DNA of 64,000 nt from Plumapathes pennacea. Its lineage: Eukaryota; Cnidaria; Anthozoa; Antipatharia; Myriopathidae. Below, piece after piece: positions 29,507-54,599 of the stretch; the first letter of the stretch is position 1, and every line of letters begins with the position of its first letter. The translations under genes and the position numbers were made by a program. The stretch covers positions 20,946,597 through 21,010,596 of the forward strand of contig OZ038466.1 in NCBI GenBank assembly GCA_964036295.1, given 5' to 3'. The notes below the pieces were generated by a model. It was not told where the DNA came from. It worked only from the letters and a program-made list of their open reading frames with translations, and did not search any database.

Positions 29507-29926
29507 GAACGTTCCGACCACCTCAGATCCACCACCTCAGGCCCCAACAATCTCAGACCCCTCGGGGGATTGGGGACCAACCACCTCAGACCCCTCGGGG
29601 GATTGGGGACCAACCACCTCAGGCCCCTCGGGGGAATGGGGACCAACCACCTCAGGCCCCTTGGGGGAATGGGGACCAGCCACCTCAGACCCCGAACAGC
29701 GGGGAACTTCTCAAATTTCGCAAATGTCTACGGTTAAATACCACAAGTTTCCGCTGTCTTGAAGAACAATTTATGCCTTTGAAATGTTTTCACAGGTCGT
29801 ATGCGCGCATGGATGTGAGTAGCTTGTTGTTTTTTTACCTTTCTTTTATTCTTGTTGCAAGTAGTGGTTGGTCCCCATTCCCTCAAGGGGCCTGAGGTGG
29901 TGGGTCTGAGATGGTCGGAACGTTCC
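29507..29926. mobile_element. Foldback element with 33-bp internal repeats
   Basis: A 420-bp element. Left end GGAACGTTCCGACCACCTCA, right end GGTCGGAACGTTCC; each terminus carries the palindrome GGAACGTTCC. Inside the left arm are four and a fraction 33-bp repeats (29552-29697; CTCAGACCCC, TCGGGGGATTGGGGACCAAC). One inverted copy lies at about 29868-29905. The repeats stay open in all frames as 11-residue cycles (for example GDWGPTTSDPS), so the apparent ORFs are artefacts. The middle (about 29700-29860) is unique sequence. Confidence 0.75.
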
Positions 29927-30112
29927 AACTGTATATGGATTTTCAAGAAAGAATACCATTACTATGCTTAATGAATGACAGAAGTTGTGCGTCTGTTGCT
30001 TTTGTACAAGAAGAGTAAAGTGCGAAATTACTTTAACTAACATCTTCTTACACGATGGCCCTGGGGACGAGGTTGTAGAAATCCGCTGAAATTCTGGAGC
30101 CCGCGTTCTTCA

Positions 30113-30184
30113 ATGGCGGACGAATGTGTTTGTAAACAGTCGCTGTTGGAATCAAAGATTATCAGGAAACTCAAGGCCAGATAA
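30113..30184 (+). other. Short ORF MADECVCK..., possible first exon, also mirrored
   Basis: ATG in good context (CTTCAATGG) opens a 23-residue frame, MADECVCKQSLLESKIIRKL plus three residues, followed by TAA and a GTACGG donor-like site. The minus-strand counterpart in the right arm at about 54410-54330 has the same translation. It looks like a host 5' exon captured by the duplication, or chance. No downstream exon was found. Confidence 0.2.
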
Positions 30185-33100
30185 CAGGTACGGACATATT
30201 TTGTGTGTGTCTATGTAACTGGTTTCACAAAAACGCGAATGTAAACGATATGGTAACACACAGCGTCAGGAAACAACGTTATACATGACCACCGTCAGCT
30301 GTGATTGTTCGTATATTTTTATCCGACCAGTACGGTTTTCATGGGAACAGAAAAGCTCTCACCGAGTTACTTAAGCATAAACATTTACTGTAATGTTTGA
30401 TTCGTCACTTGAAGTAGCTGCAAAGTCGTGGAGATCTTGTTAACATGAATCACATGCATGTCCGAGAAAAAGTTCAATGGTTCTGCGTGGATATTGATAC
30501 TATTTGTTAGTATATAAATCTAGCATGGCAAATGGTTTGAACCCAGGATTGTAAATAGTAGGTTGGTTGTGAACGTCCGGGTTAGAGTAGTCTCCAGGAA
30601 GACTGTTGTTGGTGACTGACGTTTCGACTCCCTGAGCGGAAGTAATCTTCATCTAGACCGGAAGTTAAACAAAGTACTGGGATCAGTCTAACTATCCAGG
30701 CTACCAATCAATCAATTTATTTGACTCATTATACAAAAGATAATTTACGAGATTAAGGAGAGTTTAGAAAAGTATGGATTAGTTACATAGAGAAATTTGA
30801 TTTACATATATAGTAGATAGTTTGCAGAAGAAAATAATGGTACATGTCACTGTGTTACATGTGTTACTAGTTGTGTGCCTAAAGCATTGTTGAAACGACT
30901 GGCATGGTTTTGTTTTGCGACGGCCCCAATTTCTAGGGAAATTTACTGACGTCGCTGAAATTGCAGTAAGGAATCAGGAAGCTTTGCGGCCAATTCCTTT
31001 CCCAAATTTCAGAAATCAGAAAACTACAAATTTGTAGCAATTCATAATCAGAAAACACAGCTGTCTGACCTGTGGTCTCTGCGATTTCTGAAATCAGACA
31101 TTTCCTGTCAGGGGGTGGGTGGAACATATTTTATACTTCCGGTTCTTCTTGTCTTAGCGGGTGAGGGGGGACGGGCATCCTTTTTACTTCCGGTAAACAT
31201 GACCTAAGCGGTAGAGAAAGGATAACACTTCCCTGCCTTTTTTTGATTTGGAAAAATTTGCTGAACCTGGGACAACATGATTCTTCTGCCGCTTTAATTT
31301 TAGCTTCTTTGAACATAATTTATTTGATGGCTCTGATATATAGAACCTGAATTTAATGGCATATATGAACTGATAATTCATGCTCACACTAGAAATAAAT
31401 CTGCTTCTTGTTACGCCTCGTGTTGATCGTGCTCTAATTTAAATAGAAGTCTCTTATTTGGGAGTCCATTGTTGACATAGAAGGAGAGGGAAAACCTGAG
31501 GCTCGTCAGGTCTATAATGTTTACTGGTTAGCATGCTGCTGATGTCACAGCTATGGCACTGCATTTGCCTTACTAATACCCTCATCCGATCTAGCACACA
31601 GAGTTGTGGGAGATGAGCGATGCTTTAAACAGTCATGCATGCTGTTATTGCTGCTAAATTCTGCACAAGTGGGAGTCATTATGCTTGAGGCTTTGCTGCC
31701 ATCTGTTAGGCTCAATCCCCCAAATATATGCCATAAATGCTACTGTTTTGATGTTAAATGCAAAGGGTTATGTAGGAGCTGTAAGGAGCAACTTTAAGTG
31801 ATATGTTTTGAATTAGAAGAAGTATTTTAGTCAAACCTTTCTTGAAATTTTTTGTTGTTGGTCAAGAAATTTAAGACAATGATGATCCTGGGTTAGCTTA
31901 GCCTGCCTAGCCAGCGTTACTTTTCATTTTCAGGTGAAGTTCAATTCAATTGTAAGCCTGGAGTGAGTACAAAAATCTCAGAGGGGGAGGGGGCCACTTA
32001 AAGAAGTCATGTCATAGATGGTCAGATGCAATAGATTTAAAAAATGATATTTTACTGTTTGCAGGAATTTTGTAGACAGTTTCAAATGTTATTATTATTC
32101 ATCTGCCAGGAAAATATGTATGATTCTTTCCTTTAAAATCCTCATTATTCTGGGAATCAAATCACTTTTGACTTCTTACTGAGAACCAACATTGTCTCTG
32201 CTCAACATAATTTGTTCAAGAATTTAAAACAGTATTATTTGTTTGTTATACCAATCATAAAGAGCAAAATATCTTAGTTTATAGAAATAAATTCTCCATA
32301 CTTTGAAAAGTTTTGAAATTAGTTTAATTTTAAGATATACTGTAGTTGTCCTGAGCCATTTGGCTTGTCTAGTATTCCACTTGAGAAATTAGGAAATAAG
32401 ATTTTTGATGGGAGATTGAACCTGATAATGATATTAAATACAGCAGTCAGCTTAGCTTTGCTGATAAGGGAAACCTGCTACCCTTTAACTCATTTTGTTT
32501 TCAGAACTGCTTCTCCTTTTAACCATATTGCATCCATCTGAGTAAACATGTCCTAAATATGTCTTGCTGAAATAACTTGTTCTTTGGGAGCACCCTGTTC
32601 TTCTAAATTATTAATTTAGATTGCCTCTTTCCCCTACACAAACCATTATTTTTTTGAAAAATGTCATACCCTAATACCCTGTCCTTTCAAATTATTGCTA
32701 TTGAGACACCCATTTTTCCTCTGTTTACATGACACAAGGGTATACTCTGTTGTATTCATTGCTAGGCTCCCAATAAGATATACATCCACATCAGTGGCAG
32801 TGCTGGGTGTAGGCCTTAGCTCTTCACTCTACAGTCCCCTGAAGGATCCTGGTTATGATTGGGTTGGACTACAGGCATCAAATTGCTGAAGAGTCTTGTT
32901 TAGTTGATGTTGTCAACAGGTGTGGCAAGGTGAGTGCTGCTATTTGGTCACTTGTTTATGGCTGAAATTAAGAACTCACTTAATTGCGGGTACAAAAATT
33001 ATGCTAGTAAAGTATTTTACCCTAACTTCACATACCTTTTTTAGGGATTAATCCTATTAGTAATAACACTATTTTAGCCAAATCGCTCAAGTTGTTCCAA

Positions 33101-33535
33101 GATCTCAAAAGTCAAACCAACACTATGGAGAATGTGCACAGAGAAAATCAAGACTTTTAAGAATACGTTAAGGTGATTCAATTGTTTTGCATTGTGCATC
33201 TTTACTGCGCATAACACACTTTCAAGATGGTGGACATTGAGAACCACTAAAATTTCAAGATCGAAAATATATTTTGTATGCAACGAGTTTTCATCACTTT
33301 TTACAACTCAGAATGAGTTTGCAGAAGGTTTCAGCCCACGTGTTATGACTCGCATCAGCACTGGTCCACCAGTTTGAAAATCTGGTTGTATATTACAAAA
33401 CAAGTGGAAATTCATAAATTTTTACCACTGAATACAGGGAGGAGACATGGAGTTCCTATACATGATCAAACTAACAATTCATTTTTAAAAAGGACAGAAA
33501 CACTATTTTGTTGTCAAATCAATGAATTTGTGCGT
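30185..33535. other. Left-arm sequence without recognisable genes
   Basis: Contains a dispersed repeat at 30527-30680 (GGTTGGTTGTGAACGTCCGG, GACGTTTCGACTCCCTGAGC), part of which is repeated near the palindrome centre (41446-41545). About 30829-32388 has no counterpart in the right arm. No exon structure was seen. Confidence 0.45.
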
Positions 33536-33539
33536 TTTT

Positions 33540-33740
33540 CTGTATAGGGGTCTTATGTAGACTTATGCAGACTTATGTTGACTTATGTACTAGACTTATG
33601 TAAACGTTTGTAGACTTAAATGTTGACTTTTGTTGACTTATGTTGACTTATGTAAACTTAATATGTTGACTAATGTGTAGATTTTTGTAGACTTAAGTTG
33701 ACTTATGTTGACTTATGTAGACTTCTGTTGACTTGTGTAG
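33540..33740. repeat. GACTTATGT minisatellite, left arm
   Basis: Degenerate 10-12 bp tandem units of GACTTATGTW type. The mirrored tract in the right arm at about 52303-52490 differs by substitutions and a short insertion. Confidence 0.85.
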
Positions 33741-34189
33741 TGGGTAGGGGAACCATTTTTGAAGGACATTAATTTAAGTATAAACAGTTTTTTGTAAAAA
33801 TAGTGCTTAAGATGTGCTCTTTGTGTCCATCAGTTTGTATCTGCTTACTAGTTTTAACGTTTGTATATGTCATTCAATTTTTTTGGCCACATACACAAAT
33901 TGACATCTAATGTATTAAGTGAGCCGCTCTGAAATGCGTATACTGGGGAAATTTTGGCTGACCAAAATTCCCTTATTATTATGGTGACCCCATTTTTTAT
34001 TGTGTTATTAAACTAATCCGGTATTGGTGAGCAAATAAACAGAGTTTAAAGTATTTTTTATTACAAGCTGGCAGAGGTTCGAACCTCGGAGCTATAATAT
34101 TCAACCAAACCTTATTCTTTTCTTTTTTATGGTCAAATGTCTTGGGACAACACTGTTTGAAAATCACAGACGTCTAGCAATAGTTCGCA

Positions 34190-37100
34190 TCTTTTGGACG
34201 CATAATTAATTAGGCTAGTCGAGCCCCACTGACTTCTATTCATTATGGGAAGTGCACACTGACTTCTATTCATTATGGGACCTGCACGTATCATTGAGTT
34301 TTTGTCAGCAAAAGTGAAGTGTTAATAATCGTTACTTTTGGTCCGAATAAGTTCTTAGGAGTAATAAGTATTTTGGCCGTCTTGCTCATTGTTGCAAGGG
34401 TACATTTAATATCTCTTCTTTTCGCAAGTCAACCAAAAATATACGTAGAATGCGCAAGGAAAAAGTACGAATTTTGAGAATAAATTAAAGAGTGTAAAGA
34501 GGCAGGGTTCGAAACTCAGAGTTGTAATATTCAAGCAAACCTTATTCTTTTCTTTTTTTCTTACTTTCAAGTTCACATGGAGAGTGAAGCAGACGATCGA
34601 ATGTCTTAATACAACTGTTGAATAATGACAATGAGGTCTAGCAATAGCTAGCAATTGCTTTTTTACTCAAAAGCAAATGCATAGATAGCGAAAGCAGCAT
34701 CTCAGCACAATATGAAATATCGATGTCGCAGGTAACTTGATCTAATACTCTATCTCTGTAAAAATATTGAATCAAACTTAATATATAAACCGATATTTCT
34801 CTAAGGTTAGCTTGGTAACACATCTTTTTGACGCATAATTAATTAGGCTAGTCGAGCCCCACTGACTTCTCTTCATTATGGGACGTGCACACTGACTTCT
34901 ATTCATTATGGGACCTGCACGTATCATTGAGTTTTTGTCAGCAAAAGTAAACTGTTAATACTCGTTACTTTTGACCCGAATAAATTCTTAGGAGTAATAA
35001 GTAATTCGGCCGTCTTGCTCACTGTTGCAAGGGTACATTTCACATCTCTTCTTTTCGTAAGTCAACCAAAAATATACGTAGAATGCGCACAGGGAAAAGT
35101 GCGAATTTTGAGAATAAATTAAAGAGTGTAAAGAGGCAGGGTTCGAAACTCAGAGTTGTAATATTGAACCAAACCTTATTCTTTTCTTTTTTTTTCTTCT
35201 TCTTTCAAGTTTACATGGAGGGTGAAGCAGACGATCGAATGTCTTAATACAACTGTTGAATAATCACAATGAGGTCTACCAATAGCTAGCAATTGCTTTT
35301 TTACTCAAAAGCAAATGCATAGATAGCGAAAGCAGCATCTCAGCTATATATGAAATATATGAAATAAATAAATAACAAATAATATGAAATATCGATGTCG
35401 CTGGTAACTTGATCTAATACTCTATCTCTGTAAAAATATTGAAACAAACTCAATATATAAACCGACATTTCTCTAAGGTTAGAAGTAATTTAGCTTGGTC
35501 ACACATCTTTTTGACGCATAATTAATTAGGCTAGTCGAGCCCCACTGACTTCTATTCATTATGGGACGTGCACACTGACTTCTATTCATTACGGGACCTG
35601 CACGTATCATTGAGTTTTTGTCAGCAAAAGTGAAGTGTTAATAATTGTTACTTTTGGCCCGAATAAATTCTTAGGAGTAATAAGTAATTTGGCCGTCTTG
35701 CTCATTGTTGCAAGGGTACATTTAATACCTCTTCTTTTCGCGAGTCAACCAAAAATATACGTAGAATGCGCAAGGGAAAAGTACGAATTTTGAGAATAAA
35801 TTAAAGAGTGTAAAGAGGTAGGGTTCGAAACTCAGAGTTGTAATATTCAAGCAAACCCTATTCTTTTCTTTTTTGTTTCTTACTTTCAAGTTCACATGGA
35901 GAGTGAAGCAGACGATCGAATGTCTTAATACAACTATTGAATAATCACAATGAGGTCTAGCAATAGCTAGCAATTGCTTTTTTACTCAAAAGCAAATACA
36001 TAGGTAGCGAAAACAGCATCTCAGCACAATGAAATATCAATGTCGCGGATAACTTGATCCAGTACTCTCTCTGTAAAAATATTGAAACAAACTCAATATA
36101 TAAGCCGACATTTCTCTAAGGTTAGAAGTAATTTAGCTTGGTAACACATCTTTTTGACGCATAATTAATTAGGCTAGTCGAGCCCCACTGACTTCTATTC
36201 ATTATGGGATGTGCACACTGACTTCTATTCATTATGGGACCTGCACGTATCATTGAGTTTTTGTCAGCAAAAGTGAAGTGTTAATAATCGTTACTTTTGG
36301 CCCGAATAAATTCTTAGGAGTAATACGTAATTTGGCCGTCTTGCTCATTGTTACAAGGGTACATTTAATATCTCTTCTTTTCGCAAGTCAACCAAAAATA
36401 TACGTAGAATGCGCAAGGGAAAAGTACGAATTTTGAGAATAAATTAAAGAGTGTAAAGAGGCAGGGTTCGAAACTCAGAGTTGTAATATTCAAGCAAACC
36501 CTATTCTTTTTTTTTTTTTTGTCTTACTTTCAAGTTCACATGGAGAGTGAAGCAGACGATCGAATGTCTTAATACAACTATTGAATAATCACAATGAGGT
36601 CTAGCAATAGCTAGCAATTGCTTTTTTACTCAAAAGCAAATGCATAGATAGCGAAAGCAGCATCACTGCATAATATGAAATATCGATGTTGCGGGTAACT
36701 TGATCTAATACTCTATCTCTGTAAAAATATTGAAACAAACTCAATATTTAAACCGACATTTCTCTAAGGTTAGAAGTAATTTAGCTTGGTAACACATCTT
36801 TTTGACGCATAATTAATTAGGCTAGTCGAGCCCCACTGACTTCTCTTCATTATGGGACGTGCACACTGACTTCTATTCATTATGGGACCTGCACGTATCA
36901 TTGAGTTTTTGTCAGCAAAAGTGAAGTGTTAATAATTGTTACTTTTGGCCCGAATAAATTCTTAGGAGTAATAAGTAATTTGGCCGTCTTGCTCACTGTT
37001 GCAAGGGTACATTTCATATCTCTTCTTTTCGCAAGTCAACCAAAAACATACGTAGAATGCGCACAGGGAAATGTGCGAATTTTGAGAATAAATTAAAGAG

Positions 37101-37580
37101 TGTAAAGAGGCAGGGTTCGAAACTCAGAGTTGTAATATTGAACCAAACGTTATTTTTTTCTTTTCTTTTCTTTTTTTTTCTTTAAAGTTTACATGGAGAG
37201 TGAAGCAGACGATCGAATGTCTTAATACAACTGTTGAATAATCACAATGAGGTCTACCAATATATAAACCGACATTTCTCTAAGGTTAGAAGTAATTTAG
37301 CTTGGTCACACATCTTTTTGACGCATAATTAATTAGGCTAGTCGAGCCCCACTGACTTCTGTTCATTATGGGACGTGCACACTGACTTCTATTCATTATG
37401 GGACCTGCACGTATCATTGAGTTTTTGTCAGCAAAAGTGAAGAGTTAATTATAGTTACTTTTGGCCCGAATAATCTCGTAGGAGTATTAAATATTTTGGT
37501 CGAAATGCTCATTATTGCAAGGGTACGTTTAATATCTCTTCTTTTCGCAAGTCAACCAAAAATATACGTAGAATGCGCAC
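34190..37580. repeat. About 650-bp satellite, left-arm array (6 units)
   Basis: The mark CATAATTAATTAGGCTAGTC recurs near 34200, 34834, 35519, 36161, 36809 and 37327, giving 515-685 bp spacings. Each unit holds a doubled GACTTCTATTCATTATGGGA block, a T-rich stretch and GCAGGGTTCGAAACTC, which resembles a Pol III B box. Small open frames recur once per unit and are not genes. Confidence 0.95.
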
Positions 37581-37634
37581 AGGGAGAAGTGAGAAAAGTG
37601 CCAATACTTAGGGTAGCAAAATCGGATTAAGGTA

Positions 37635-38427
37635 GGTTAACGGACCCAGCTTCTTCTGTACTTGTTCAAGTTCAGAAAGCGCACCTATTTGTTTTCTAGA
37701 TCAGAGAATGTACCGATGTTTGTTCCAAACTTGAAACTGGTTGGGACAAGGACCGGTGTTGCATGTCAATTAGATGTTTAAACACCGCTCAAGTTCAGAA
37801 CGAACACCGCCTATCAAGTTTATAGCAATGCCTAACAAGTTCAGTTTAAACACCGTTCATGTTTAGCTTAAACACCGTTCAAGTTCATATCAAACACCGA
37901 CCAAGTTCAAAACAAACACCGTTCAAGTTTATGAAATACACCGATCAATTACGATTCATGTTATGGCTCCAGTGCTTTTCAGCTTTAACTTATATAACGG
38001 GACACAGTTTCTACAAAATATGTCGCGTATTCAAATACATTATAAAAAAGATAACCAATAAATACAAATAAAACCTATGGAATTGTGCTTCTTTTGAACT
38101 TGATTGATGATTGTTGTGAATCTGAACGGTGTTCTAATTGAACTTGTTTAAACTGTTCGGTGTTTTGATTGAACTTGATCGGTGCTTGTTCTGAACCTGT
38201 TAACGGTGTTGATTATGAACTGGAACGGTGCGGATAGTGTACCTGACAGCTAACGTCACAAGTACAGGAGCAACACCGGCTTGTTTACTGTACTTGAAAG
38301 CAGACAGTGCCTTTTCTGAACCTGTTCGGTGCACTTTCTGAACTTGTCCGGTGCTTTTTCTGAACCTGATACAAGCGGTACGTTTTCTGGATCTGAACAA
38401 GAACAGAAGAAGCTGGGTCCGTTAACC
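37635..38427. mobile_element. TA-flanked foldback element carrying 22-bp repeats, left arm
   Basis: Termini GGTTAACGGACCCAGCTTCT and its inverse AGAAGCTGGGTCCGTTAACC, each flanked by TA (37633-37634, 38428-38429). Both arms are built of degenerate 22-bp units (CACCG..CAAGTTCA) facing each other around a unique middle (about 37960-38085). The TA duplication and TIRs suggest a Tc1/mariner-like non-autonomous element. No ORF of note. Confidence 0.75.
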
Positions 38428-39129
38428 TAACATGAACCGCAAAAGCAGTATGAGCGCAAGATGAAATATTGACGTCGCGGGTAACTTGAGCAACAAGGTT
38501 GGTTGAACGGATATGACACCTATAAAATTGCTTTCGTCCTGTGCATGTCTGTGTCGGAAATCTGGAAAGTTTCAGTTGCAGTGCAGTGCATGTGTTTTCT
38601 AGCCCAGTCTTGGCAGCTACCTTCGGGCCTGTTTTCATCCTGAACTTTGCGTCACTCTCGCGCTGGGGTCAACCTTCCGTTTTCTGTTTACATGTCAAAG
38701 GTTAGACTTGTCTAGGGCGACAGGATGACTTTAGCACTGGGTTCAAACTTTTTGAGAGCTGGAGTTATCCTAGCGCGAGGATTATGTTTACGTCTTTTAA
38801 ACGATTGAGTTAAGGATGAGTCGCCTACCCGGGACAAGACTTGCTCGTCCCAGACCTCTCGACTCATTGATAATAAACAATTATGACGCTCGCGCAATAT
38901 AATTCCGAGAACATTCTTTCGTACTTGTCAGCGAGCTATACTACTTTTAGCCGCCACAGGACATATTTCGACGTTCCCATCGACCTAAGCAATGAGTCCA
39001 AAATGTCTCACGATTGGAGTAAAGCTATCGAGTCACTTTGGTGGTGTTTTGAACATTTAAACATCCACCGGCGTTCTTTTGTCTCGTAGCAGCATGATCT
39101 TTTGTCTATACCGTTTGATTGCTTTGTCT

Positions 39130-39382
39130 ACGCAACATATTCTTTTGTTGTTAAACAAAAATCGTTGCTCTCCACTCTATTGTTTTACGCAGCATATTCT
39201 TTTGTTGTTAAACAAACATCGTTGCTCTTCACTCTATTGTTTTACGCAGCATATTCTTTTGTTGTTAAGCAAACATCGTTGCTCTTCACTCTATTGTTTT
39301 ACGCAGCATATTCTTTTGTTGTTAAACAAAAATCGTTGCTCTCCACTCTATTGTTTTACGCAGCATATTCTTTTGTTGTCGA
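39130..39382. repeat. 57-bp tandem repeat, 4.4 copies, left arm
   Basis: Units start at 39130, 39187, 39244, 39301 and 39358 (ACGCAGCATATTCTTTTGTT). As 57 is 3 x 19, the frame stays open as 19-residue hydrophobic repeats (YAAYSFVVKQTSLLFTLLF). The resulting 130- and 166-codon frames are repeat artefacts unless transcripts show otherwise. Mirrored at 43949-44201. Confidence 0.9.
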
Positions 39383-40914
39383 CAAAAGTAAATTCCAAAA
39401 CACGCACGCATTACACGTTTTTGCTTATGAGGTTCCATTGTCTTTCAGGTTGTGCGCGTATTTGCATTTGATATTGGACCTTCCAGATGGCTCGTTGAGA
39501 GTGATACTTCTTCTTGTTTGGACGTCTGCGAGCGATTTCTATCGTCCTATCTACTCTAAATTGGTGTCTCATGCCGTACGAAACTCTGGCTTGGATGACT
39601 GAGCAGTAAATATCGCAAAGCCTCACTCTACGCAAGAAACGTGTGTCGTTCTTCAACGGAGAGTTTAGCACAAGACGAGTCACCTGTGAAGGAATCGTTG
39701 CTCACCGCTCTTTGCAGAGTGGTTTCTATCGTTCTGTACTCCTCTAAATTGGTGTCTCATGCCGTACGAATCTCTGGCTTGGATGACTGAGCAGTAAAGA
39801 TCGCAAAGCCTCATTCTAGGCAAGAAACGTGTGTTGTTCTTCAACGGAGAGTTTAGCACAAGGCGAGTGACCTATGAAGGAACCGTTGCTCGCCGCTCTG
39901 TGCAGAATGCCCTCTTGATGTTGAACCAGTTCAATGGAAACCGGATGCAATTACTGATGACATATTGAAACTGCTACGGACAATTTGCCGTCGAACAGCA
40001 GCAAATGTTCAAGACAGCATCAAGAGACTTTTGGATTTGATGGAAGTGTTAAAGACAGCAGTATGAAGTTATGAGAAACGACGGGCACGTTAAATTACAT
40101 AGTCTTCATCACTAAAGGAGAATCAGGGAAACGCTTCGTTGCTCGTTTAAAGAGATATTGACTTGCGAGCGAACGCTCTGAACACTTTGATACATTTGTT
40201 GTGAAGGCCGAAACGAGCCAGTTTGTGAAGGATATTCCGCTTTTGAAGATTACAGAAGGTTCGTAAACTCTGCCGATTGCTGTATAAGTCGTTTGTATAA
40301 GTTGTACAAGTCATTTGAACTCTTAAAACGTGATTTGAAGCCAGCTAGCGCCGAATCTTAAGATATGTTGTGAGACTTGTACTTGAGATTTTTCATTTTT
40401 GGCTTTGTTTTTATTGGTGTAATTGCGGTGTAGCCAATAAATGATGTTCCTTTATACTTGCGTGCACTTGTTGAGTTGAGTTTGAACGTATTGAGCTAAG
40501 AATAAGTGTAGAAGTACGTGTATTTTGCGAGACTTGTACTATTATTTTTCGGAGACATGTCTTTGGTAAACAATAGGTCGTCTATGCTAATTTTATTCAG
40601 AATTATTAATGAAGCTCTGAGCCAATCAGAAGGCCGGAAATTAATTGGTTGCCATGGCAACGGGCTATTTTAGCTAAAAACGGGCCAAAATTCGTTAATG
40701 AGATGCTAATTAGGTAGTAAGCACTACTGCGCATGCGCAGTGTATATATTAATTTGTAGTCGCCATTTTGAATTTATTAATAAGCTGTATATATTATTTG
40801 AGTTCATTATACATTGATTTTTTTCTTGTTGATGTCTTTCATTTGTATTGGAATCCTATGATTCCAGCTGTCCAAGTTCTGGAACTTGGAGTTCCCCTTT
40901 TGGTAAGTGTCCCA

Positions 40915-41140
40915 CTGGTGCTGTAGCATCAGCGGTCCACCCCTCAGGGGTTTCCCTTCCACGAGAGAGCTAACCAGTGGCCCCTTAGAAGCAATGGCAG
41001 GTTTCCCTCAAAAAAGTCCCCCTCCTTAGAAGTCCAACTAGCGCCGTAGCACTAGCGGTCCACCTCAAAGGGTTCCCTTTCTGAGAGTCCTGACCAGTAC
41101 TCATCCAGAGCAATGGCTGACTCCTCTAAAGCACCTCAGC
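40915..41140. repeat. About 118-bp tandem dimer near the palindrome centre
   Basis: Two related units begin near 40910 and 41028. Shared marks: GTAGCA.CAGCGGTCCACC, CAGGGGTTTCCCTT / AAAGGGTTCCCTTT, AACCAGT / GACCAGT and GAGCAATGGC-like ends. Two short palindromes precede it (GGAATCCTATGATTCC, CCAAGTTCTGGAACTTGG). Mirrored at about 42191-42416. Function unknown. Confidence 0.6.
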
Positions 41141-41350
41141 AAAGGATCTCTTCAGTGAAGTTTTCCCAGCTGAAAGTGCTTGAAAGGCAAATCTGGCACT
41201 AAAAGAAGTGCCGCCGATTTGAAGGCAAGTGTATACCAACGACACTAGCAAAATCTGCCTTATTGGCAGCGCTCTCCTTCCACATGTGGGACTCTTGATG
41301 ACGTCATAAAAAAGGGTAATGCGCATGCGTAAACTAGGAGAAAAAGGAAA

Positions 41351-41430
41351 AAGAAAGAGCCAGGATTCGAACCCCGAACCTCTGTATTCGTTCCTGGGCG
41401 TCCTGCCGACTGCGCTGTTGCATCAGTTGA
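41351..41430 (-). repeat. tRNA-like (Pol III promoter) segment, left arm
   Basis: Minus-strand reading shows an A-box-like GCGCAGTCGGCAGGACGC and, about 30 nt later, GGGGTTCGAATCC, a perfect B box. A T-rich run follows. The acceptor stem does not pair convincingly, so this is a tRNA relic or SINE head rather than a working tRNA gene. Mirrored at 41901-41980. Confidence 0.6.
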
Positions 41431-42416: not shown

Positions 42417-43948
42417 TGGGACACTTACCAAAAGGGGAACTCCAAGTTCCAGAACTTGGACAGCTGGAATCATAGGATTCCAATACAAATGAAAGACATC
42501 AACAAGAAAAAAATCAATGTATAATGAACTCAAATAATATATACAGCTTATTAATAAATTCAAAATGGCGACTACAAATTAATATATACACTGCGCATGC
42601 GCAGTAGTGCTTACTACCTAATTAGCATCTCATTAACGAATTTTGGCCCGTTTTTAGCTAAAATAGCCCGTTGCCATGGCAACCAATTAATTTCCGGCCT
42701 TCTGATTGGCTCAGAGCTTCATTAATAATTCTGAATAAAATTAGCATAGACGACCTATTGTTTACCAAAGACATGTCTCCGAAAAATAATAGTACAAGTC
42801 TCGCAAAATACACGTACTTCTACACTTATTCTTAGCTCAATACGTTCAAACTCAACTCAACAAGTGCACGCAAGTATAAAGGAACATCATTTATTGGCTA
42901 CACCGCAATTACACCAATAAAAACAAAGCCAAAAATGAAAAATCTCAAGTACAAGTCTCACAACATATCTTAAGATTCGGCGCTAGCTGGCTTCAAATCA
43001 CGTTTTAAGAGTTCAAATGACTTGTACAACTTATACAAACGACTTATACAGCAATCGGCAGAGTTTACGAACCTTCTGTAATCTTCAAAAGCGGAATATC
43101 CTTCACAAACTGGCTCGTTTCGGCCTTCACAACAAATGTATCAAAGTGTTCAGAGCGTTCGCTCGCAAGTCAATATCTCTTTAAACGAGCAACGAAGCGT
43201 TTCCCTGATTCTCCTTTAGTGATGAAGACTATGTAATTTAACGTGCCCGTCGTTTCTCATAACTTCATACTGCTGTCTTTAACACTTCCATCAAATCCAA
43301 AAGTCTCTTGATGCTGTCTTGAACATTTGCTGCTGTTCGACGGCAAATTGTCCGTAGCAGTTTCAATATGTCATCAGTAATTGCATCCGGTTTCCATTGA
43401 ACTGGTTCAACATCAAGAGGGCATTCTGCACAGAGCGGCGAGCAACGGTTCCTTCATAGGTCACTCGCCTTGTGCTAAACTCTCCGTTGAAGAACAACAC
43501 ACGTTTCTTGCCTAGAATGAGGCTTTGCGATCTTTACTGCTCAGTCATCCAAGCCAGAGATTCGTACGGCATGAGACACCAATTTAGAGGAGTACAGAAC
43601 GATAGAAACCACTCTGCAAAGAGCGGTGAGCAACGATTCCTTCACAGGTGACTCGTCTTGTGCTAAACTCTCCGTTGAAGAACGACACACGTTTCTTGCG
43701 TAGAGTGAGGCTTTGCGATATTTACTGCTCAGTCATCCAAGCCAGAGTTTCGTACGGCATGAGACACCAATTTAGAGTAGATAGGACGATAGAAATCGCT
43801 CGCAGACGTCCAAACAAGAAGAAGTATCACTCTCAACGAGCCATCTGGAAGGTCCAATATCAAATGCAAATACGCGCACAACCTGAAAGACAATGGAACC
43901 TCATAAGCAAAAACGTGTAATGCGTGCGTGTTTTGGAATTTACTTTTG

Positions 43949-44201
43949 TCGACAACAAAAGAATATGCTGCGTAAAACAATAGAGTGGAGAGCAACGATT
44001 TTTGTTTAACAACAAAAGAATATGCTGCGTAAAACAATAGAGTGAAGAGCAACGATGTTTGCTTAACAACAAAAGAATATGCTGCGTAAAACAATAGAGT
44101 GAAGAGCAACGATGTTTGTTTAACAACAAAAGAATATGCTGCGTAAAACAATAGAGTGGAGAGCAACGATTTTTGTTTAACAACAAAAGAATATGTTGCG
44201 T
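43949..44201. repeat. 57-bp tandem repeat, right-arm copy
   Basis: Mirror of 39130-39382 with the same unit count and the same variants in mirrored order. Confidence 0.9.
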
Positions 44202-44903
44202 AGACAAAGCAATCAAACGGTATAGACAAAAGATCATGCTGCTACGAGACAAAAGAACGCCGGTGGATGTTTAAATGTTCAAAACACCACCAAAGTGACT
44301 CGATAGCTTTACTCCAATCGTGAGACATTTTGGACTCATTGCTTAGGTCGATGGGAACGTCGAAATATGTCCTGTGGCGGCTAAAAGTAGTATAGCTCGC
44401 TGACAAGTACGAAAGAATGTTCTCGGAATTATATTGCGCGAGCGTCATAATTGTTTATTATCAATGAGTCGAGAGGTCTGGGACGAGCAAGTCTTGTCCC
44501 GGGTAGGCGACTCATCCTTAACTCAATCGTTTAAAAGACGTAAACATAATCCTCGCGCTAGGATAACTCCAGCTCTCAAAAAGTTTGAACCCAGTGCTAA
44601 AGTCATCCTGTCGCCCTAGACAAGTCTAACCTTTGACATGTAAACAGAAAACGGAAGGTTGACCCCAGCGCGAGAGTGACGCAAAGTTCAGGATGAAAAC
44701 AGGCCCGAAGGTAGCTGCCAAGACTGGGCTAGAAAACACATGCACTGCACTGCAACTGAAACTTTCCAGATTTCCGACACAGACATGCACAGGACGAAAG
44801 CAATTTTATAGGTGTCATATCCGTTCAACCAACCTTGTTGCTCAAGTTACCCGCGACGTCAATATTTCATCTTGCGCTCATACTGCTTTTGCGGTTCATG
44901 TTA

Positions 44904-45696
44904 GGTTAACGGACCCAGCTTCTTCTGTTCTTGTTCAGATCCAGAAAACGTACCGCTTGTATCAGGTTCAGAAAAAGCACCGGACAAGTTCAGAAAGTGC
45001 ACCGAACAGGTTCAGAAAAGGCACTGTCTGCTTTCAAGTACAGTAAACAAGCCGGTGTTGCTCCTGTACTTGTGACGTTAGCTGTCAGGTACACTATCCG
45101 CACCGTTCCAGTTCATAATCAACACCGTTAACAGGTTCAGAACAAGCACCGATCAAGTTCAATCAAAACACCGAACAGTTTAAACAAGTTCAATTAGAAC
45201 ACCGTTCAGATTCACAACAATCATCAATCAAGTTCAAAAGAAGCACAATTCCATAGGTTTTATTTGTATTTATTGGTTATCTTTTTTATAATGTATTTGA
45301 ATACGCGACATATTTTGTAGAAACTGTGTCCCGTTATATAAGTTAAAGCTGAAAAGCACTGGAGCCATAACATGAATCGTAATTGATCGGTGTATTTCAT
45401 AAACTTGAACGGTGTTTGTTTTGAACTTGGTCGGTGTTTGATATGAACTTGAACGGTGTTTAAGCTAAACATGAACGGTGTTTAAACTGAACTTGTTAGG
45501 CATTGCTATAAACTTGATAGGCGGTGTTCGTTCTGAACTTGAGCGGTGTTTAAACATCTAATTGACATGCAACACCGGTCCTTGTCCCAACCAGTTTCAA
45601 GTTTGGAACAAACATCGGTACATTCTCTGATCTAGAAAACAAATAGGTGCGCTTTCTGAACTTGAACAAGTACAGAAGAAGCTGGGTCCGTTAACC
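44904..45696. mobile_element. TA-flanked foldback element, right-arm copy
   Basis: Mirror of 37635-38427, flanked by TA at 44902-44903 and 45697-45698. Translations of chance frames are identical to the left copy, so the two copies arose by the inverted duplication, not by separate insertions. Confidence 0.75.
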
Positions 45697-45749
45697 TACT
45701 TTAATCCGATTTTGCTACCCTAAGTATTGGCACTTTTCTCACTTCTCCC

Positions 45750-48700
45750 TGTGCGCATTCTACGTATATTTTTGGTTGACTTGCGAAAAGAAGAGATATT
45801 AAACGTACCCTTGCAATAATGAGCATTTCGACCAAAATATTTAATACTCCTAAGAGATTATTCGGGCCAAAAGTAGCTATAATTAACTCTTCACTTTTGC
45901 TGACAAAAACTCAATGATACGTGCAGTTCCCATAATGAATAGAAGTCAGTGTGCACATCCCATAATGAAGAGAAGTCAGTGGGGCTCGACTAGCCTAATT
46001 AATTATGCGTCAAAAAGATGTGTTACCAAGCTAAATTACTTCTAACCTTAGAGACATGTCGGTTTATATATTGAGTTTGTTTCAATATTTTTACAGAGAG
46101 AGTACTGGATCAAGTTATCCGCGACATCGATATTTCATATTGTGCTGAGATGCTGCTTTCGCTACCTATACATTTGCTTTTGAGTAGAAAGCAATATTGC
46201 TAGCTATTGCTAGACCTCATTGTGATTATTCAACAGTTGTATTAAGACATTCGATCGTCTGCTTCACTCTCCATGTAAACTTTAAAGAAAAAAAAAGAAA
46301 AGAAAAGAAAAGAAAGAATAAGGTTTGGTTCAATATTACAACTCTGAGTTTCGAACCCTGCCTCTTTACACTCTTTAATTTATTCTCAAAATTCGCACAT
46401 TTCCCTGTGCACATTCTACGTATATTTTTGGTTGACTTGCGAAAAGAAGAGATATGAAATGTACCCTTGCAACAGTGAGCAAGACGGCCAAATTACGTAT
46501 TACTCCTAAGAATTTATTCGGGCCAAAAGTAACGATTACTAACACTTCACTTTTGCTGACAAAAACTCAATGATACGTGCAGGTCCCATAATGAATAGAA
46601 GTCAGTGTGCACGTCCCATAATGAACAGAAGTCAGTGGGGCTCGACTAGCCTAATTAATTATGCGTCAAAAAGATGTGTTACCAAGCTAAATTACTTCTA
46701 AACTTAGAGAAATGGCGACTTATATATTGAGTTTGTTTCAATATTTTTACAGAGAGAGTATTGGATCAAGTTAACCGCGACATTGATATTTCATATTGTG
46801 CTGAGATGCTCCTTTCGCTATCTACGTATTTGCTTTTGAGTAAAAAAGCAATTGCTAGCTATTGCTAGAACTCATTGTAATTATTCAATAGTTGTATTAA
46901 GACATTCGATCGTCTGCTTCACTCTTCATGTGAACTTGAAAGTAAGAAAAAAAAAAAAGAAAAGAATAGGGTTTGCTTGAATATTACAACTCTGAGTTTC
47001 GAACCCTGCCTCTTTACACTCTTTAATTTATTCTCAAAATTCGTACTTTTCCCTTGCGCATTCTACGTATATTTTTGGTTGACTTGCGAAAAGAAGAGGT
47101 ATTAAATGTACCCTTGCAACAGTGAGGAAGACGGCCAAATTACGTATTACTCCTAAGAATTTATTCGGGCCAAAAGTAAGAATTATTAACACTTCACTTT
47201 TGCTGACAAAAACTCAATGATACGTGCAGGTCCCATAATGAATAGAAGTCAGTGTGCACGTCCCATAATGAATAGAAGTCAGTGGGGCTCGACTAGCCTA
47301 ATTAATTATGCGTCAAAAAGATGTGTTACCAAGCTAAATTACTTCTAACCTTAGAGAAATGTCGGTTTATATATTGAGTTTGTTTCAATATTTTTACAGA
47401 GATAGAGTATTAGATCAAGTTACCTGCGACATCGATATTTTATATTGTGCTGAGATGCTGCTTTCGCTATCTATGCATTTGCTTTTGAGTAAAAAAGCAA
47501 TATTGCTAGCTATTGCTAGACCTCATTGTGATTATTCAACAGTTGTATTAAGACATTCGATCGTCTGCTTCACTCTCCATGTAAACTTTAAAGAAAAAAA
47601 AAGAAAAGAAAAGAAAAGAATAAGGTTTGGTTCAATATTACAACTCTGAGTTTCGAACCCTGCCTCTTTACACTCTTTAATTTATTCTCAAAATTCGCAC
47701 ATTTCCCTGTGCACATTCTACGTATATTTTTGGTTGACTTGCGAAAAGAAGAGATATGAAATGTACCCTTGCAACAGTGAGCAATACGGCCAAATTACGT
47801 ATTACTCCTAAGAATTTATTCGGGCCAAAAGTAACGATTATTAACACTTCACTTTTGCTGACAAAAACTCAATGATACGTGCAGGTCCCATAATGAATAG
47901 AAGTCAGTGTGCACGTCCCATAATGAACAGAAGTCAGTGGGGCTCGACTAGCCTAATTAATTATGCGTCAAAAAGATGTGTTACCAAGCTAAATTACTTC
48001 TAAACTTAGAGAAATGTCGGTTTATATATTGAGTTTGTTTCAATATTTTTACAGAGATAGAGTATTAGATCAAGTTACCTGCGACATCGATATTTCATAT
48101 TGTGCTGAGATGCTGCTTTCGCTATCTGTGCATTTGCTTTTGAGTAAAAAAGCAATTGCTAGCTATTGCTAGACCTCATTGTGATTATTCAACAGTTGTA
48201 TTAAGACATTCGATCGTCTGCTTCACTCTCCATGTAAACTTTAAAGAAAAAAAAGAAAAGAAAAGAAAAGAATAAGGTTTGGTTCAATATTACAACTCTG
48301 AGTTTCGAACCCTGCCTCTTTACACTCTTTAATTTATTCTCAAAATTCGCACATTTCCCTGTGCGCATTCTACGTATATTTTTGGTTGACTTGCGAAAAG
48401 AAGAGATATGAAATGTACCCTTGCAACAGTGAGCAATACGGCCAAATTACGTATTACTCCTAAGAATTTATTCGGGCCAAAAGTAATGATTATTAACACT
48501 TCACTTTTGCTGACAAAAACTCAATGATACGTGCAGGTCCCATAATGAATAGAAGTCAGTGTGCACGTCCCATAATGAACAGAAGTCAGTGGGGCTCGAC
48601 TAGCCTAATTAATTATGCGTCAAAAAGATGTGTTACCAAGCTAAATTACTTCTAAACTTAGAGAAATGGCGGCTTATATATTGAGTTTGTTTCAATATTT

Positions 48701-51700
48701 TTACAGAGAGAGTATTGGATCAAGTTAACTGCGACATCGATATTTCATATTGTGCTGAGATGCTGCTTTCACTATCTATGTATTTGCTTTTGAGTAAAAA
48801 AGCAATTGCTAGCTATTGCTAGACCTCATTGTGATTATTCAATAGTTGTATTAAGACATTCGATCGTCTGCTTCACTCTTCATGTGAACTTGAAAGTAAG
48901 AAAAAAAAAAAGAAAAGAATAGGGTTTGCTTGAATATTACAACTCTGAGTTTCGAACCCTGCCTCTTTACACTCTTTAATTTATTCTCAAAATTCGTACT
49001 TTTCCCTTGCGCATTCTACGTATATTTTTGGTTGACTTGCGAAAAGAAGAGGTATTAAATGTACCCTTGCAACAGTGAGGAAGACGGCCAAATTACGTAT
49101 TACTCCTAAGAATTTATTCGGGCCAAAAGTAACAATTATTAACACTTCACTTTTGCTGACAAAAACTCAATGATACGTGCAGGTCCCATAATGAATAGAA
49201 GTCAGTGTGCACGTCCCATAATGAATAGAAGTCAGTGGGGCTCGACTAGCCTAATTAATTATGCGTCAAAAAGATGTGTTACCAAGCTAAATTACTTCTA
49301 ACCTTAGAGAAATGTCGGTTTATATATTGAGTTTGTTTCAATATTTTTACAGAGATAGAGTATTAGATCAAGTTACCTGCGACATCGATATTTTATATTG
49401 TGCTGAGATGCTGCTTTCGCTATCTATGCATTTGCTTTTGAGTAAAAAAGCAATATTGCTAGCTATTGCTAGACCTCATTGTGATTATTCAACAGTTGTA
49501 TTAAGACATTCGATCGTCTGCTTCACTCTCCATGTAAACTTTAAAGAAAAAAAAAGAAAAGAAAAGAAAAGAATAAGGTTTGGTTCAATATTACAACTCT
49601 GAGTTTCGAACCCTGCCTCTTTACACTCTTTAATTTATTCTCAAAATTCGCACATTTCCCTGTGCACATTCTACGTATATTTTTGGTTGACTTGCGAAAA
49701 GAAGAGATATGAAATGTACCCTTGCAACAGTGAGCAATACGGCCAATTTACGTATTACTCCTAAGAATTTATTCGGGCCAAAAGTAACGATTATTAACAC
49801 TTCACTTTTGCTGACAAAAACTCAATGATACGTGCAGGTCCCATAATGAATAGAAGTCAGTGTGCACGTCCCATAATGAACAGAAGTCAGTGGGGCTCGA
49901 CTAGCCTAATTAATTATGCGTCAAAAAGATGTGTTACCAAGCTAAATTACTTCTAAACTTAGAGAAATGTCGGTTTATATATTGAGTTTGTTTCAATATT
50001 TTTACAGAGATAGAGTATTAGATCAAGTTACCTGCGACATCGATATTTCATATTGTGCTGAGATGCTGCTTTCGCTATCTGTGCATTTGCTTTTGAGTAA
50101 AAAAGCAATTGCTAGCTATTGCTAGACCTCATTGTGATTATTCAACAGTTGTATTAAGACATTCGATCGTCTGCTTCACTCTCCATGTAAACTTTAAAGA
50201 AAAAAAAGAAAAGAAAAGAAAAGAATAAGGTTTGGTTCAATATTACAACTCTGAGTTTCGAACCCTGCCTCTTTACACTCTTTAATTTATTCTCAAAATT
50301 CGCACATTTCCCTGTGCGCATTCTACGTATATTTTTGGTTGACTTGCGAAAAGAAGAGATATGAAATGTACCCTTGCAACAGTGAGCAATACGGCCAAAT
50401 TACGTATTACTCCTAAGAATTTATTCGGGCCAAAAGTAACGATTATTAACACTTCACTTTTGCTGACAAAAACTCAATGATACGTGCAGGTCCCATAATG
50501 AATAGAAGTCAGTGTGCACGTCCCATAATGAACAGAAGTCAGTGGGGCTCGACTAGCCTAATTAATTATGCGTCAAAAAGATGTGTTACCAAGCTAAATT
50601 ACTTCTAAACTTAGAGAAATGGCGGCTTATATATTGAGTTTGTTTCAATATTTTTACAGAGAGAGTATTGGATCAAGTTAACTGCGACATCGATATTTCA
50701 TATTGTGCTGAGATGCTGCTTTCGCTATCTATGTATTTGCTTTTGAGTAAAAAAGCAATTGCTAGCTATTGCTAGACCTCATTGTGATTATTCAATAGTT
50801 GTATTAAGACATTCGATCGTCTGCTTCACTCTTCATGTGAACTTGAAAGTAAGAAAAAAAAAAAGAAAAGAATAGGGTTTGCTTGAATATTACAACTCTG
50901 AGTTTCGAACCCTGCCTCTTTACACTCTTTAATTTATTCTCAAAATTCGTACTTTTCCCTCGCGCATTCTACGTATATTTTTGGTTGACTTGCGAAAAGA
51001 AGAGGTGTTAAATGTACCCTTGCAACAATGAGCAATACGGCCAAATTACTTATTACTCCTAAGAATTTATTCGGGCCAAAAGTAAGAATTATTAACACTT
51101 CACTTTTGCTGACAAAAACTCAATGATACGTGCAGGTCCCATAATGAATAGAAGTCAGTGTGCAAGTCCCATAATGAACAGAAGTCAGTGGGGCTCGACT
51201 AGCCTAATTAATTATGCATCAAAAAGATGTGTTACCAAGCTAAATTACTTCTAACCTTAGAGAAATGTCGGTTTATATATTGAGTTTGTTTCAATATTTT
51301 TACAGAGATAGAGTATTAGATCAAGTTACCTACGACATCGATATTTCATATTGTGCTGAGATGCTGCTTTCGCTACCTATGCATTTGCTTTTGAGTAAAA
51401 AAGCAATTGCTAGCTATTGGTACACCTCATTGTGATTATTCAACAGTTGTATTAAGACATTCGATCATCTGCTTCACTCTCCATGTGAACTTCAAAGTAA
51501 GAAAAAAGAAAAGAATAAGGTTTGCTTGAATATTACAACTCTGAGTTTCGAACCCTGCCTCTTTACACTCTTTAATTTATTCTCAAAATTCGTACTTTTT
51601 CCTTGCGCATTCTAGGTATATTTTTGGTTGACTTGCGAAAAGAAGAGATATGAAATGTACCCTTGCAACAATGAGCAAGACAGCCAAAATACTTATTACT

Positions 51701-51870
51701 CCTAAGAACTTATTCAGACCAAAAGTAACGATTATTAACACTTCACTTTTGCTGACAAAAACTCAATGATACGTGCAGGTCCCATAATGAATAGAAGTCA
51801 GTGTGCACGTCCCATAATGAATAGAAGTCAGTAGGGTTCGACTAGCCTAATTAATTATGCGTCAAAAAGA
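45750..51870. repeat. About 650-bp satellite, right-arm array (10 units, trimer HOR)
   Basis: GCCTAATTAATTATGCGTC recurs near 45990, 46650, 47299, 47954, 48607, 49252, 49911, 50567, 51210 and 51850. Units three apart resemble each other most. The 96-codon frames at 47359 and 49312 are identical and exactly 1953 bp apart, and the GAGAAATGGC variant recurs near 46710, 48662 and 50617. This is a three-unit higher-order repeat, present about 2.5 times. Confidence 0.95.
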
Positions 51871-52302
51871 TGCTAACTATTGCTAGACGTCTGTGATTAT
51901 CAAACAGTGTTGTACTAAGACATTTGATCATAAAAAAGATTTGGTTGAATATTATAGCTCCGAGGTTCGAACCTCTGCCAGCTTGTAATAAAAAATACTT
52001 TAAACTCTGTTTATTTGCTCACCAATACCGGATTAGTTTAATAACACAATAAAAAATGGGGTTACCATAATAATAAGGAAATTTTGGTCAGCCAAAATTT
52101 CCCCAGTATACGCATTTCAGAGCGGCTCACTTAATACATTACATGTCAATTTGTGTATGTGGCCAAAAAAATTGAATGACATATACAAACGTTAAAACTA
52201 GTAAGCAGATACAAATTGATAGAGCACATCTTAAGCACTATTTTTACAAAAAACTGTTTATACTTGAATTAATGTCCTTCAAAAATGGTTCCCCTACCCA
52301 CT

Positions 52303-52490
52303 ACACAAGTCAACATAAGTCTACATAAGTCAACATAAGTCAACTTAAGTCTACAAAAATCTACACATTAGTCAACATATTAAGTTTACATAAGTTAACA
52401 TAAGTCAACAAAAGTCAACATTTAAGTCTACAAACGTTTATATAAGTCTAGTACATAAGTCTGCATAAGTCTACATAAAAAGACCCCTAT
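52303..52490. repeat. GACTTATGT minisatellite, right arm
   Basis: Reverse complement of the 33540-33740 tract with scattered substitutions and a short AAAA insertion near 52478. Confidence 0.85.
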
Positions 52491-54599
52491 ACAGAAAAAT
52501 GCACAAATTCATTGATTTGACAACAAAATAGTGTTTCTGTCCTTTTTAAAAATGAATCTTTTGTTAGTTTGATTATGTATAGGAACTCCATGTCTCCTCC
52601 CTGTATTCAGTGGTAAAAAATTATGAATTTCCACTTGTTTTGTAATATACAACCAGATTTTCATACTGGCGGACCAGTGCTGATGCGAGTCATAACACGT
52701 GGGCTGAAACCTTCTGCAAACTCATTCTGAGTTGTAAAAAATGATGAAAACTCGTTGCATACAAAATATAAATATTTTCGATCTTGAAATTTTAGTGGTT
52801 CTCAATGTCCACCATCTTGAAAGTGTGTTATGCGCAGTAAAGATGCACAATGCAAAACAATTGAATCACCTTAATGTATTCTTAAAAGTCTTGATTTTCT
52901 CTGTGCACATTCTCCATAGTGTTGGTTTGACTTGTGAAACAAAGAGATCTTGCAACAATGAGCGATTTGGCTAAAATAGTGTTATTACTAATAGGATTAA
53001 TCCCTAAAAAAGGTTGCATGTGAAGTTGGGGTAAAATATTTTACTAGCATAATTTTTGTACCCGCAATTAAGTGAGTTCTTAATTTCAGCCATAAACAAG
53101 TGACCAAATAGCAGCACTCACCTTGCCACACCTGTTGACAACATCAACTAAACAAGACTCTTCAGCAATTTGATGCCTATAGTCCAACCCAATCATAACC
53201 AGGATCCTTCAGGGGACTGTAGAGTGAAGAGCTAAGGCCTACACCCAGCACTGCCACTGATGTGGATGTATATCCTATTGGGAGCCTAGCAATGAATACA
53301 ACAGAGTATACTCTTGTGTCATGTAAACAGAGGAAAAATGGGTGTCTCAATAGCAATAATTTGAAAGGACAGGGTATTAGGGTATGACATTTTTCAAAAA
53401 AATGATGGTTTGTGTAGGGGGAAGAGGCAATCTAAATTAATAATTTAGAAGAACAGGGTGCTCCCAAAGAACAAATTATTTCAAAAAGACATATTTAGGA
53501 CATGTTTACCCAGATGGATGCAATATGGTTAAAAGGAGAAGCAGTTCTGCAAACAAAATGAGTTAAAAGGGTAGCAGGTTTCCCTTATCAGCAAAGCTAA
53601 GCTGACTGCTGTATTTAATATCATTATCAGGTTCAATCTCCCATCAAAAATCTTATTTCCTAATCGTCAAATAGTTTTCTTCTGCAAACTATCTACTATA
53701 TGTAAATCAAATTTCTCTAAGTATGTAACTAATCCATACTTTTCTAAACTCTCCTTAATCTCATAAATTATCTTTTGTATAATGAGTCAAATAAATTGAT
53801 TGATTGGTAGCCTGGATAGTTAGACTGATCCCAGTACTTTGTTTAACTTCCGGTCTAGATGAAGATTACTTCCGCTCAGGGAGTCGAAACGTCAGTCACC
53901 AACAACAGTCTTCCTGGAGACTACTCTAACCCGGACGTTCACAACCAACCTACTATTTACAATCCTGGGTTCAAACCATTTGCCATGCTAGATTTATATA
54001 CTAACAAATAGTATCAATATCCACGCAGAACCATTGAACTTTTTCTCGGACATGCATGTGATTCATGTTAACAAGATCTTGACACGACTTTGCAGCTACT
54101 TCAAGTGACGAATCAAACATTACAGTAAATGTTTATGCTTAAGTAACTCGGTGAGAGCTTTTCTGTTCCCATGAAAACTGTACTGGTCGGATAAAAATAT
54201 ACGAACAATCACAGCTGACGGTGGTCATGTATAACGTTTGTTTCCTGACGCTGTGTGTTACCATATCGTTTACATTCGCGTTTTTGTGAAACCAGTTACA
54301 TAGACACACACAAAATATGTCCGTACCTGTTATCTGGCCTTGAGTTTCCTGATAATCTTTGATTCCAACAGCGACTGTTTACAAACACATTCGTCCGCCA
54401 TTGAAGAACGCGGGCTCCAGAATTTCAGCGGATTTCTACAACCTCGTCCCCGGGACCATCGTGTATTAAAGAAGATGTTAGTTAAAGTAATTTCGCGCTT
54501 TACTCTTCTTGTACAAAAGCAACAGACGCACAACTTCTGTCATTCATTAAGCATAGTAATGGTATTCTTTCTTGAAAATCCATATACAGTTGGAACGTT

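Follow-up and report, generated by a model that had tools for sequence, protein, structure and literature searches.

We found that a giant palindrome on contig C5 belongs to a family of evenly spaced loci that carry a nearly unchanged, promoter-like block. (The window is the whole stretch that we analysed, 64,000 nucleotides at positions 20946597-21010596 of C5, in a 290-Mb genome assembly of 24 contigs.) We lean towards the reading that the palindrome is real and that it branched off recently, as an isolated copy, from a family of at least 90 non-coding, promoter-like loci that the host has kept, some of them as palindromes. The geometry of the palindrome, the family of related loci, the conservation of the block, the even spacing, and the concordance of the arms are direct observations. 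From its sequence, the block is probably a promoter, and its product may be a non-coding RNA or a chromosome-organising activity.

Geometry of the palindrome

A first-pass annotation of the window had described an inverted duplication of about 24.7 kb with arms of 11.7 and 12.9 kb, a 20-nt spacer, and an axis at 41665.5. Self-alignment confirmed this description. The duplication spans 24,681 bp (29919-54599), its arms are 11,737 bp and 12,924 bp long (Table 1), and the axis is exact: position 41655 is mirrored by 41676. Between the inner arms (37258-41655 and 41676-46073), identity is 99.66% over the inner 8.8 kb, spacer included. Excluding the spacer, there are 8 differences between them, of which seven fall within 37258-37497 and the eighth lies near 37631, and the innermost 4,055 bases of each arm have 1 mismatch. 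A perfect inverted repeat of 4 kb cannot have arisen by chance.

Farther out, the arms have 95-98% identity in gapped alignments (2-5% divergence). Left of about 37165, the ungapped mirror identity falls to chance level because the tandem arrays of ~650-bp units are unequal and because positions 30835-32387 are unmatched. Beyond the inner core, the arms still match by homology, but the position-wise mirror is lost. The unmatched stretch is present in a related palindrome at 18.6 Mb on C4, so the right arm's copy was probably deleted. (Minisatellites of 22 bp, about 81% alike, lie both outside the arms, at 16576-16996, and inside, at 37780-37948.)

Table 1. Coordinates of features in and beside the palindrome.
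Feature	Positions	Strand	Remarks
Palindrome left arm	29919..41655	+	Self-alignment
Left-arm stretch without right-arm counterpart	30835..32387	+	Present in the C4 18.6-Mb relative
Left tandem array	34188..37262	+	~650-bp units, ~4.7 copies; broken at 35359-35380
Inner core	37258..46073	none	99.66% self-inverse, spacer counted
41-bp conserved block, left arm	40621..40661	+	Cross-copy alignment
Palindromic word CTGCGCATGCGCAG	40727..40740		Mirror 42591-42604
TATA-like word	40742..40751	+	Centre-facing side of block; mirror 42580-42589
Word ATGACGTCAT	41298..41307		Mirror 42024-42033
tRNA-like A box (41406-41416) and B box (41363-41373)	41363..41416	-	Mirror 41915-41968
Spacer	41656..41675	none	20 nt, between arms
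Palindrome right arm	41676..54599	-	Self-alignment
41-bp conserved block, right arm	42670..42710	-	Mirror
Right tandem array	45736..51872	-	~650-bp units, ~9.4 copies; self-alignment
A', copy of A (15055-16405)	54600..55944	+	99.2%; abuts and cuts the right arm

Edges and flanks

The arm limits in the first-pass annotation also held, as homology between the arms ends at 29919 and 54599. These positions are rearrangement edges and do not mark the natural ends of an element. In the C4 18.6-Mb palindrome, the arms stay 99.8% symmetric over 588 bp across the equivalent edge, and the symmetry runs at least ~490 bp past it, up to the end of the piece that we fetched. In the window, A' cuts the right arm. 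The edges were therefore made by rearrangement. No target-site duplication is present at 29919/54599 in the flanks of the window copy. A terminal-inverted-repeat (TIR) element with its ends at those two positions was rejected, since there is no duplication and the symmetry on C4 runs on. The left flank (29504-29918) contains remnants of the same edge sequence, partly inverted. In the other C4 copies, similarity is lost at varied points and the ends are not shared.

A and A' form a direct duplication of 1.35 kb. Among the matches listed, the first ~670 bases of A are full-length only at A and A', and the remainder of A is a dispersed repeat. Inverted partial copies of A lie near 16399-16578. 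Elsewhere in the window, a run of 200 Ns (25701-25900) shows where scaffolds were joined, 4 kb to the left of the palindrome, and a long tandem array of ~385-bp units (59437-64000) reaches the window's end. At 21281-22772 on the minus strand, there are adjacent frames, one of which has a weak match to Phage_integrase below the curated cut-off; we presume that these resemble a DIRS-type retroelement.

A family of related loci

Comparing pieces of the arms to the window's own genome identified relatives mainly on C4, C9, and C12. We also searched the whole genome for the 41-base block as a pattern, with up to 3 mismatches and with the backward pattern as a control. The 41-base block gave 113 sites and its 26-base core gave 117; the backward controls gave 0 in both cases. 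We placed 108 of the 117 core sites, which make up 90 loci: 50 on C9 (spread between 0.7 and 16.5 Mb of its 17.4 Mb), 21 on C4, 12 on C6, 5 on C12, and 1 each on C5 and C11. Among the sites listed, the block occurs only on these six contigs (diverged units elsewhere could be missed). The block was found in 0 viral contigs and 0 prokaryote contigs, and a literature search found no such locus family among its listings. The C11 site (C11:2742667), the lone copy on its contig among the sites listed, is 73% identical to the window arm.

Nineteen of the loci are pairs of inward-facing blocks (1 on C5, 2 on C4, 11 on C6, and 5 on C12) and so are palindromic; the remaining loci are single arms. In all 19 pairs, the first block is on the + strand and the second is on the - strand, so the same side of the block always faces the centre. 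For C6 and C12, one palindrome each was read in sequence, and the others rest on paired matches. (One C6 block site is listed without a partner.) The palindromes at 18.6 and 19.0 Mb on C4 and at five places on C12 were apparent from paired matches or matches in both orientations, and their block-to-block distances are 1.7-2.4 kb, in line with 1.8 kb in the window. The first-pass annotation was right about a large, near-perfect palindrome, but this palindrome is not alone: the assembly has at least 19 paired loci and about 90 loci with the core block.

We fetched ten of the C4 and C9 loci. Their likeness is confined to the element, about 20 kb, and the surrounding chromosome is not common to them. 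All ten (10/10) have a tandem array of 650-680-bp units about 3-5 kb upstream of the block. At these fetched loci, an arm consists of this array of ~650-680-bp units, then 3-5 kb to the promoter-like block, then ~0.6-0.7 kb to the CRE-like and tRNA-like words, and then a tip. At the 19 paired loci, two such arms are joined at their tips with a short spacer in between. On our reading, palindromes are a recurrent form of the family of promoter loci.

The relatives' DNA contains BEL/Pao, GIY-YIG, and rhodopsin-type GPCR genes, which fits an animal-like genome. Its intronless GPCRs and its retroelements may point to a cnidarian-like source. We considered whether the loci are enhancers of GPCR clusters and rejected this: among the 150 matches listed, PF00001 is spread over many contigs and, by eye, is not concentrated in the blocks of loci.

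Conservation of the block

The conserved block contains what we take to be CCAAT-, ETS-, RFX-, and POU-like words, with GTTGCCATGGCAAC as the RFX-like word. Towards the centre, it is followed by CTGCGCATGCGCAG, which is presumably NRF1-like, and by a word that we take to be TATA-like. About 0.6-0.7 kb farther on are ATGACGTCAT, presumably a CRE-like word with the core TGACGTCA, and, on the opposite strand, the boxes that we recognised as tRNA-like A and B boxes. In the ten copies that were found by similarity, the stretch at about 40621-40710 is nearly unchanged. The RFX-like and CRE-like words are exact in 10/10 copies (the core TGACGTCA is kept in 10/10 aligned copies), the NRF1-like core is present in 9/10, and the TATA-like word is changed or missing in some.

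Our first test of invariance used 11 of the 19 aligned rows; the eight that were dropped were mostly second arms and close C4 copies. The longest run of invariant columns was 40, and none of 20,000 column shuffles reached this. This test is biased, since the motif itself had led us to the C6 and C11 rows, and we therefore repeated it on the other rows: in the 9 similarity-found rows, the longest run was 42 (0/10,000 shuffles). With all 19 rows, it was 40 (0/10,000). A caveat is that column shuffles ignore local variation in rate.

This invariance contrasts with the divergence around it. Over the same ~340 bases, identity to the window is 63% for C6, 75% for C11, 79-82% for C9, and 85% for C12; overall identity to the window is down to 63-85% in C6, C11, C12, C9, and C4 at 13.9 Mb. 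Eleven C9 loci that are 80-84% alike overall have the 41-mer exactly. Besides host function, gene conversion or a very recent spread could give an invariant block, although the neighbouring sequence differs by up to 37%. In single-arm loci, another non-coding stretch is conserved beyond the tip (C4 and C9 copies are 82-89% identical), located in locus L011 at ~5040-5550, or 9040-9550 in joined coordinates, and also in its relatives.

The loci appear to be non-coding

No coding signal was found over the palindrome, where the longest stop-free frame is 170 amino acids and repetitive. The first-pass annotation had noted that the core mirrors itself with identical translations; the mirroring is exact around 41665.5, but given these frames the translations are uninformative. 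Substitutions between copies lack an excess at third positions, and frames shift or break. The absence of codon periodicity and the frame shifts among copies rule out a protein-coding core. Similarly, an exon-like frame that we had picked out by eye at about 39.97-40.1 kb is broken in other copies.

Known RNAs were not found either. In the window and 15 loci, no Rfam family reached its gathering score; four weak microRNA matches in the core (E = 0.023-0.43) were all far below the cut-offs. A tRNA gene was also rejected, as ARAGORN, run on the window and on 23 loci, called none despite the tRNA-like boxes.

Arm-to-arm evolution and the origin of the fold

In a tree of 16 rows over ~810 bp, the left and right arms are identical to each other in the C5, C4 19.0-Mb, and C12 1.08-Mb palindromes, and they are sisters in the C4 18.6-Mb palindrome. 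C5 groups with C4 18.6 and C4 19.78 (support of 80/86 for the group, with an open fork). On our best reading, the window copy would be a recent offshoot of the C4 group that stands alone on C5.

Of the sites in the outer segment, 17 unite the C5 arms with each other and set them apart from both C4 arms, as compared to 1 and 1 for the two cross-groupings. Arm-to-arm divergence in this segment is 2.1% for C5 and 1.4% for C4, while in the core it is 0.02% and 0.3%. In other palindromes, the C12 1.08-Mb arms are 99.68% identical, and the C6 12.45-Mb arms are identical at 1370/1370 positions (the C6 copy aligns to the window in short stretches only). The concordance of the arms is as expected if there were arm-to-arm gene conversion, and the gradient in divergence would fit conversion that is strongest near the centre. 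Such conversion may keep the inner kilobases alike while the outer parts drift.

How might the palindromes form? Single-arm C4 copies have a flipped spacer, then ~0.2 kb with a second tRNA-like stretch, and then an inverted copy of the tip, 81-83 bp long. In the C4 18.6-Mb palindrome, a tip unit of ~222 bp is repeated three times. From the flipped spacer, the inverted tip copy, and the triplicated tip, we infer that palindromes may arise at the tip through template switching or fold-back. A palindrome that had lost one of its arms would end in the same nub, so the direction from single arm to palindrome is presumed. The single arms with their nubs, the palindromes with short spacers, and the triplicated tips would offer a natural series in which to study the formation and persistence of giant palindromes.

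Spacing along chromosomes

The loci occur in runs with a mean step of 200-330 kb (coefficient of variation, CV, of 0.28-0.52), or roughly one locus every 250 kb; this stepping is most complete on C9. Pooled over the 108 of 117 sites that were placed, the normalised standard deviation of the steps is 0.41, as compared to 0.93 for random placement, and none of 20,000 simulations was as even, where C4 and C9 had been split before the test at their two wide stretches without sites (2.8 and 3.7 Mb), a choice that tips the result towards evenness. The numbers of simulations, out of 5,000, with a CV at or below the observed value were 24 for C4a, 0 for C4b, 1 for C6, 0 for C9a, 7 for C9b, and 712 for C12, so evenness on C12 alone is not significant and that of C4a is weaker. 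Using fewer of the C6 loci gave the same picture. Among the sites listed, block-free gaps lie at 7.49-11.17 Mb on C9 and at 14.07-16.85 Mb on C4, inside regions that are otherwise evenly filled.

What the loci might do

If the loci are a host-maintained family of non-coding promoters, this would account for the invariance of the block, the absence of frames, the shared architecture, and the even spacing. With promoter-like blocks that face inwards, a hairpin transcript, which the first-pass annotation suggested might feed small-RNA pathways, is geometrically possible.

A bolder idea, which we offer as speculation and consider rather unlikely, is that these ~90 promoter-bearing, often palindromic sites, at ~250-kb steps over entire chromosome regions, are a sequence-coded system for organising chromosomes in an animal that would lack CTCF if it is a cnidarian. 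They might partition or mark chromatin via RFX-, NF-Y-, or NRF1-type factors, and perhaps TFIIIC-type factors. If so, the palindromic form and the conversion between arms would keep each site intact, and the single copy on C5 would be a site that was seeded recently.

Alternative explanations

The palindrome could instead be a very long foldback or TIR transposable element that is non-coding and moved as a unit, with the evenness due to insertion immunity or to purging of close neighbours. We consider this unlikely. The inverted arms do have internal tandem repeats, the family has spread to several chromosomes without the surrounding DNA, and the C5 copy clusters inside the C4 group, all of which a transposon would explain. 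But the supposed ends lack a target-site duplication and are crossed by homology on C4, and we found no transposase-like frame in the window arms. Nor does exclusion give the observed spacing: with a 50-kb exclusion between random sites, 0 of 3,000 simulations were as even. Also, a dead element would not be expected to hold a 40-base block invariant in its old copies.

We are equally doubtful that the block serves as a normal promoter for a large family of paralogous coding genes, with the loci as gene starts, with exons far off, and with the spacing of the loci reflecting that of the genes. Under this explanation, the promoter-like words, including a TATA-like word on one side, would be unsurprising, and so would the conserved non-coding stretch past the tip of single-arm loci. 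However, using Pfam on open reading frames of over 200 amino acids, we found no common coding sequence within the 20 kb around 10 fetched loci, nor in the 50 kb that we sampled from one interval, and in the palindromes, the path past the tip leads into the other arm.

The third explanation is an artefact of the assembly or library (a fold-back chimera or a false duplication), a worry that the first-pass annotation had raised and that is now weakened. The inner arms are nearly identical and a scaffold gap of 200 Ns lies 4 kb to the left of the palindrome, as might be seen in an artefact. Against this, the C5 arms diverge by 0.02% at the centre and by 2.1% in the outer segment, and this gradient from the centre outwards argues against a fold-back chimera. 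Outside the core, the arms are 2-5% apart, with arrays of ~4.7 and ~9.4 units and a stretch that is missing on one side. Furthermore, the pairing has one and the same orientation at 19 loci, the centres that we compared are homologous, and the palindromes on C12 and C6 have diverged sequence of their own. The palindrome thus seems to be a real part of the C5 assembly, and we regard an artefact as very improbable.

Finally, that the arms are the terminal-repeat junction of an integrated giant DNA virus of ~300 kb is barely credible: inverted arms ~300 kb apart had suggested it, but five samples of 10 kb from between two arms on C4 (19.54-19.76 Mb) are ordinary DNA with few open reading frames of over 200 amino acids, and the frames with Pfam matches are three rhodopsin-type GPCRs and one BEL/Pao frame, with no virus genes, and on these samples we rejected a virus with terminal repeats.

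Comparison with known systems

Large palindromes have mainly been described on sex chromosomes and as accidents that are unstable. At 19 loci of this genome, they share one core and one inward orientation, within an evenly spaced family whose 40-base block is unchanged. As in the ampliconic palindromes of the mammalian X and Y chromosomes, the inverted arms are large, the centre is nearly identical, and the arms evolve in concert. The arm identity of over 99% that marks ampliconic palindromes is seen in the inner 8.8 kb (99.66%), with 95-98% farther out. A signature of gene conversion is seen as well: the arms of four palindromes are identical or sisters, and the sites split 17 to 1 and 1. Unlike the ampliconic palindromes, the arms here have no genes that we could find, and there are tens of related loci, evenly spaced, on several chromosomes.

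Foldback and TIR transposons (such as FB and Galileo) have inverted arms that contain tandem repeats, which is also the form seen here, but precise ends and a target-site duplication were not found, nor was a transposase in the window arms.

Two other systems resemble the family in how its members are distributed. The Tyba holocentromere of Rhynchospora consists of regularly spaced, repeat-bearing units of 15-25 kb, according to PMC10264360. Our units are about 20 kb and, within their runs, are regularly spaced (0/20,000 when pooled; not significant for C12 alone). They differ in forming runs on a few chromosomes, in carrying a promoter-like block, and in their mixed orientation, and a holocentromere would be present on every chromosome while the placed sites are on C4, C5, C6, C9, C11, and C12 only. 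The rex sites of the C. elegans X chromosome recruit by sequence, and the strongest ones mark regularly spaced domain boundaries, as stated in PMC8825453. Our loci are likewise specified by sequence and spread along a chromosome, with 50/90 on C9 alone. However, rex sites are short, and they are not palindromes tens of kb in length.

In sea anemones, CTCF is absent and TADs are undetectable, as given in PMC10719294. If this genome belongs with that group, then the loci would be direct candidates for a different organising element. The family would offer a sequence-defined handle on the 250-kb scale along animal chromosomes.
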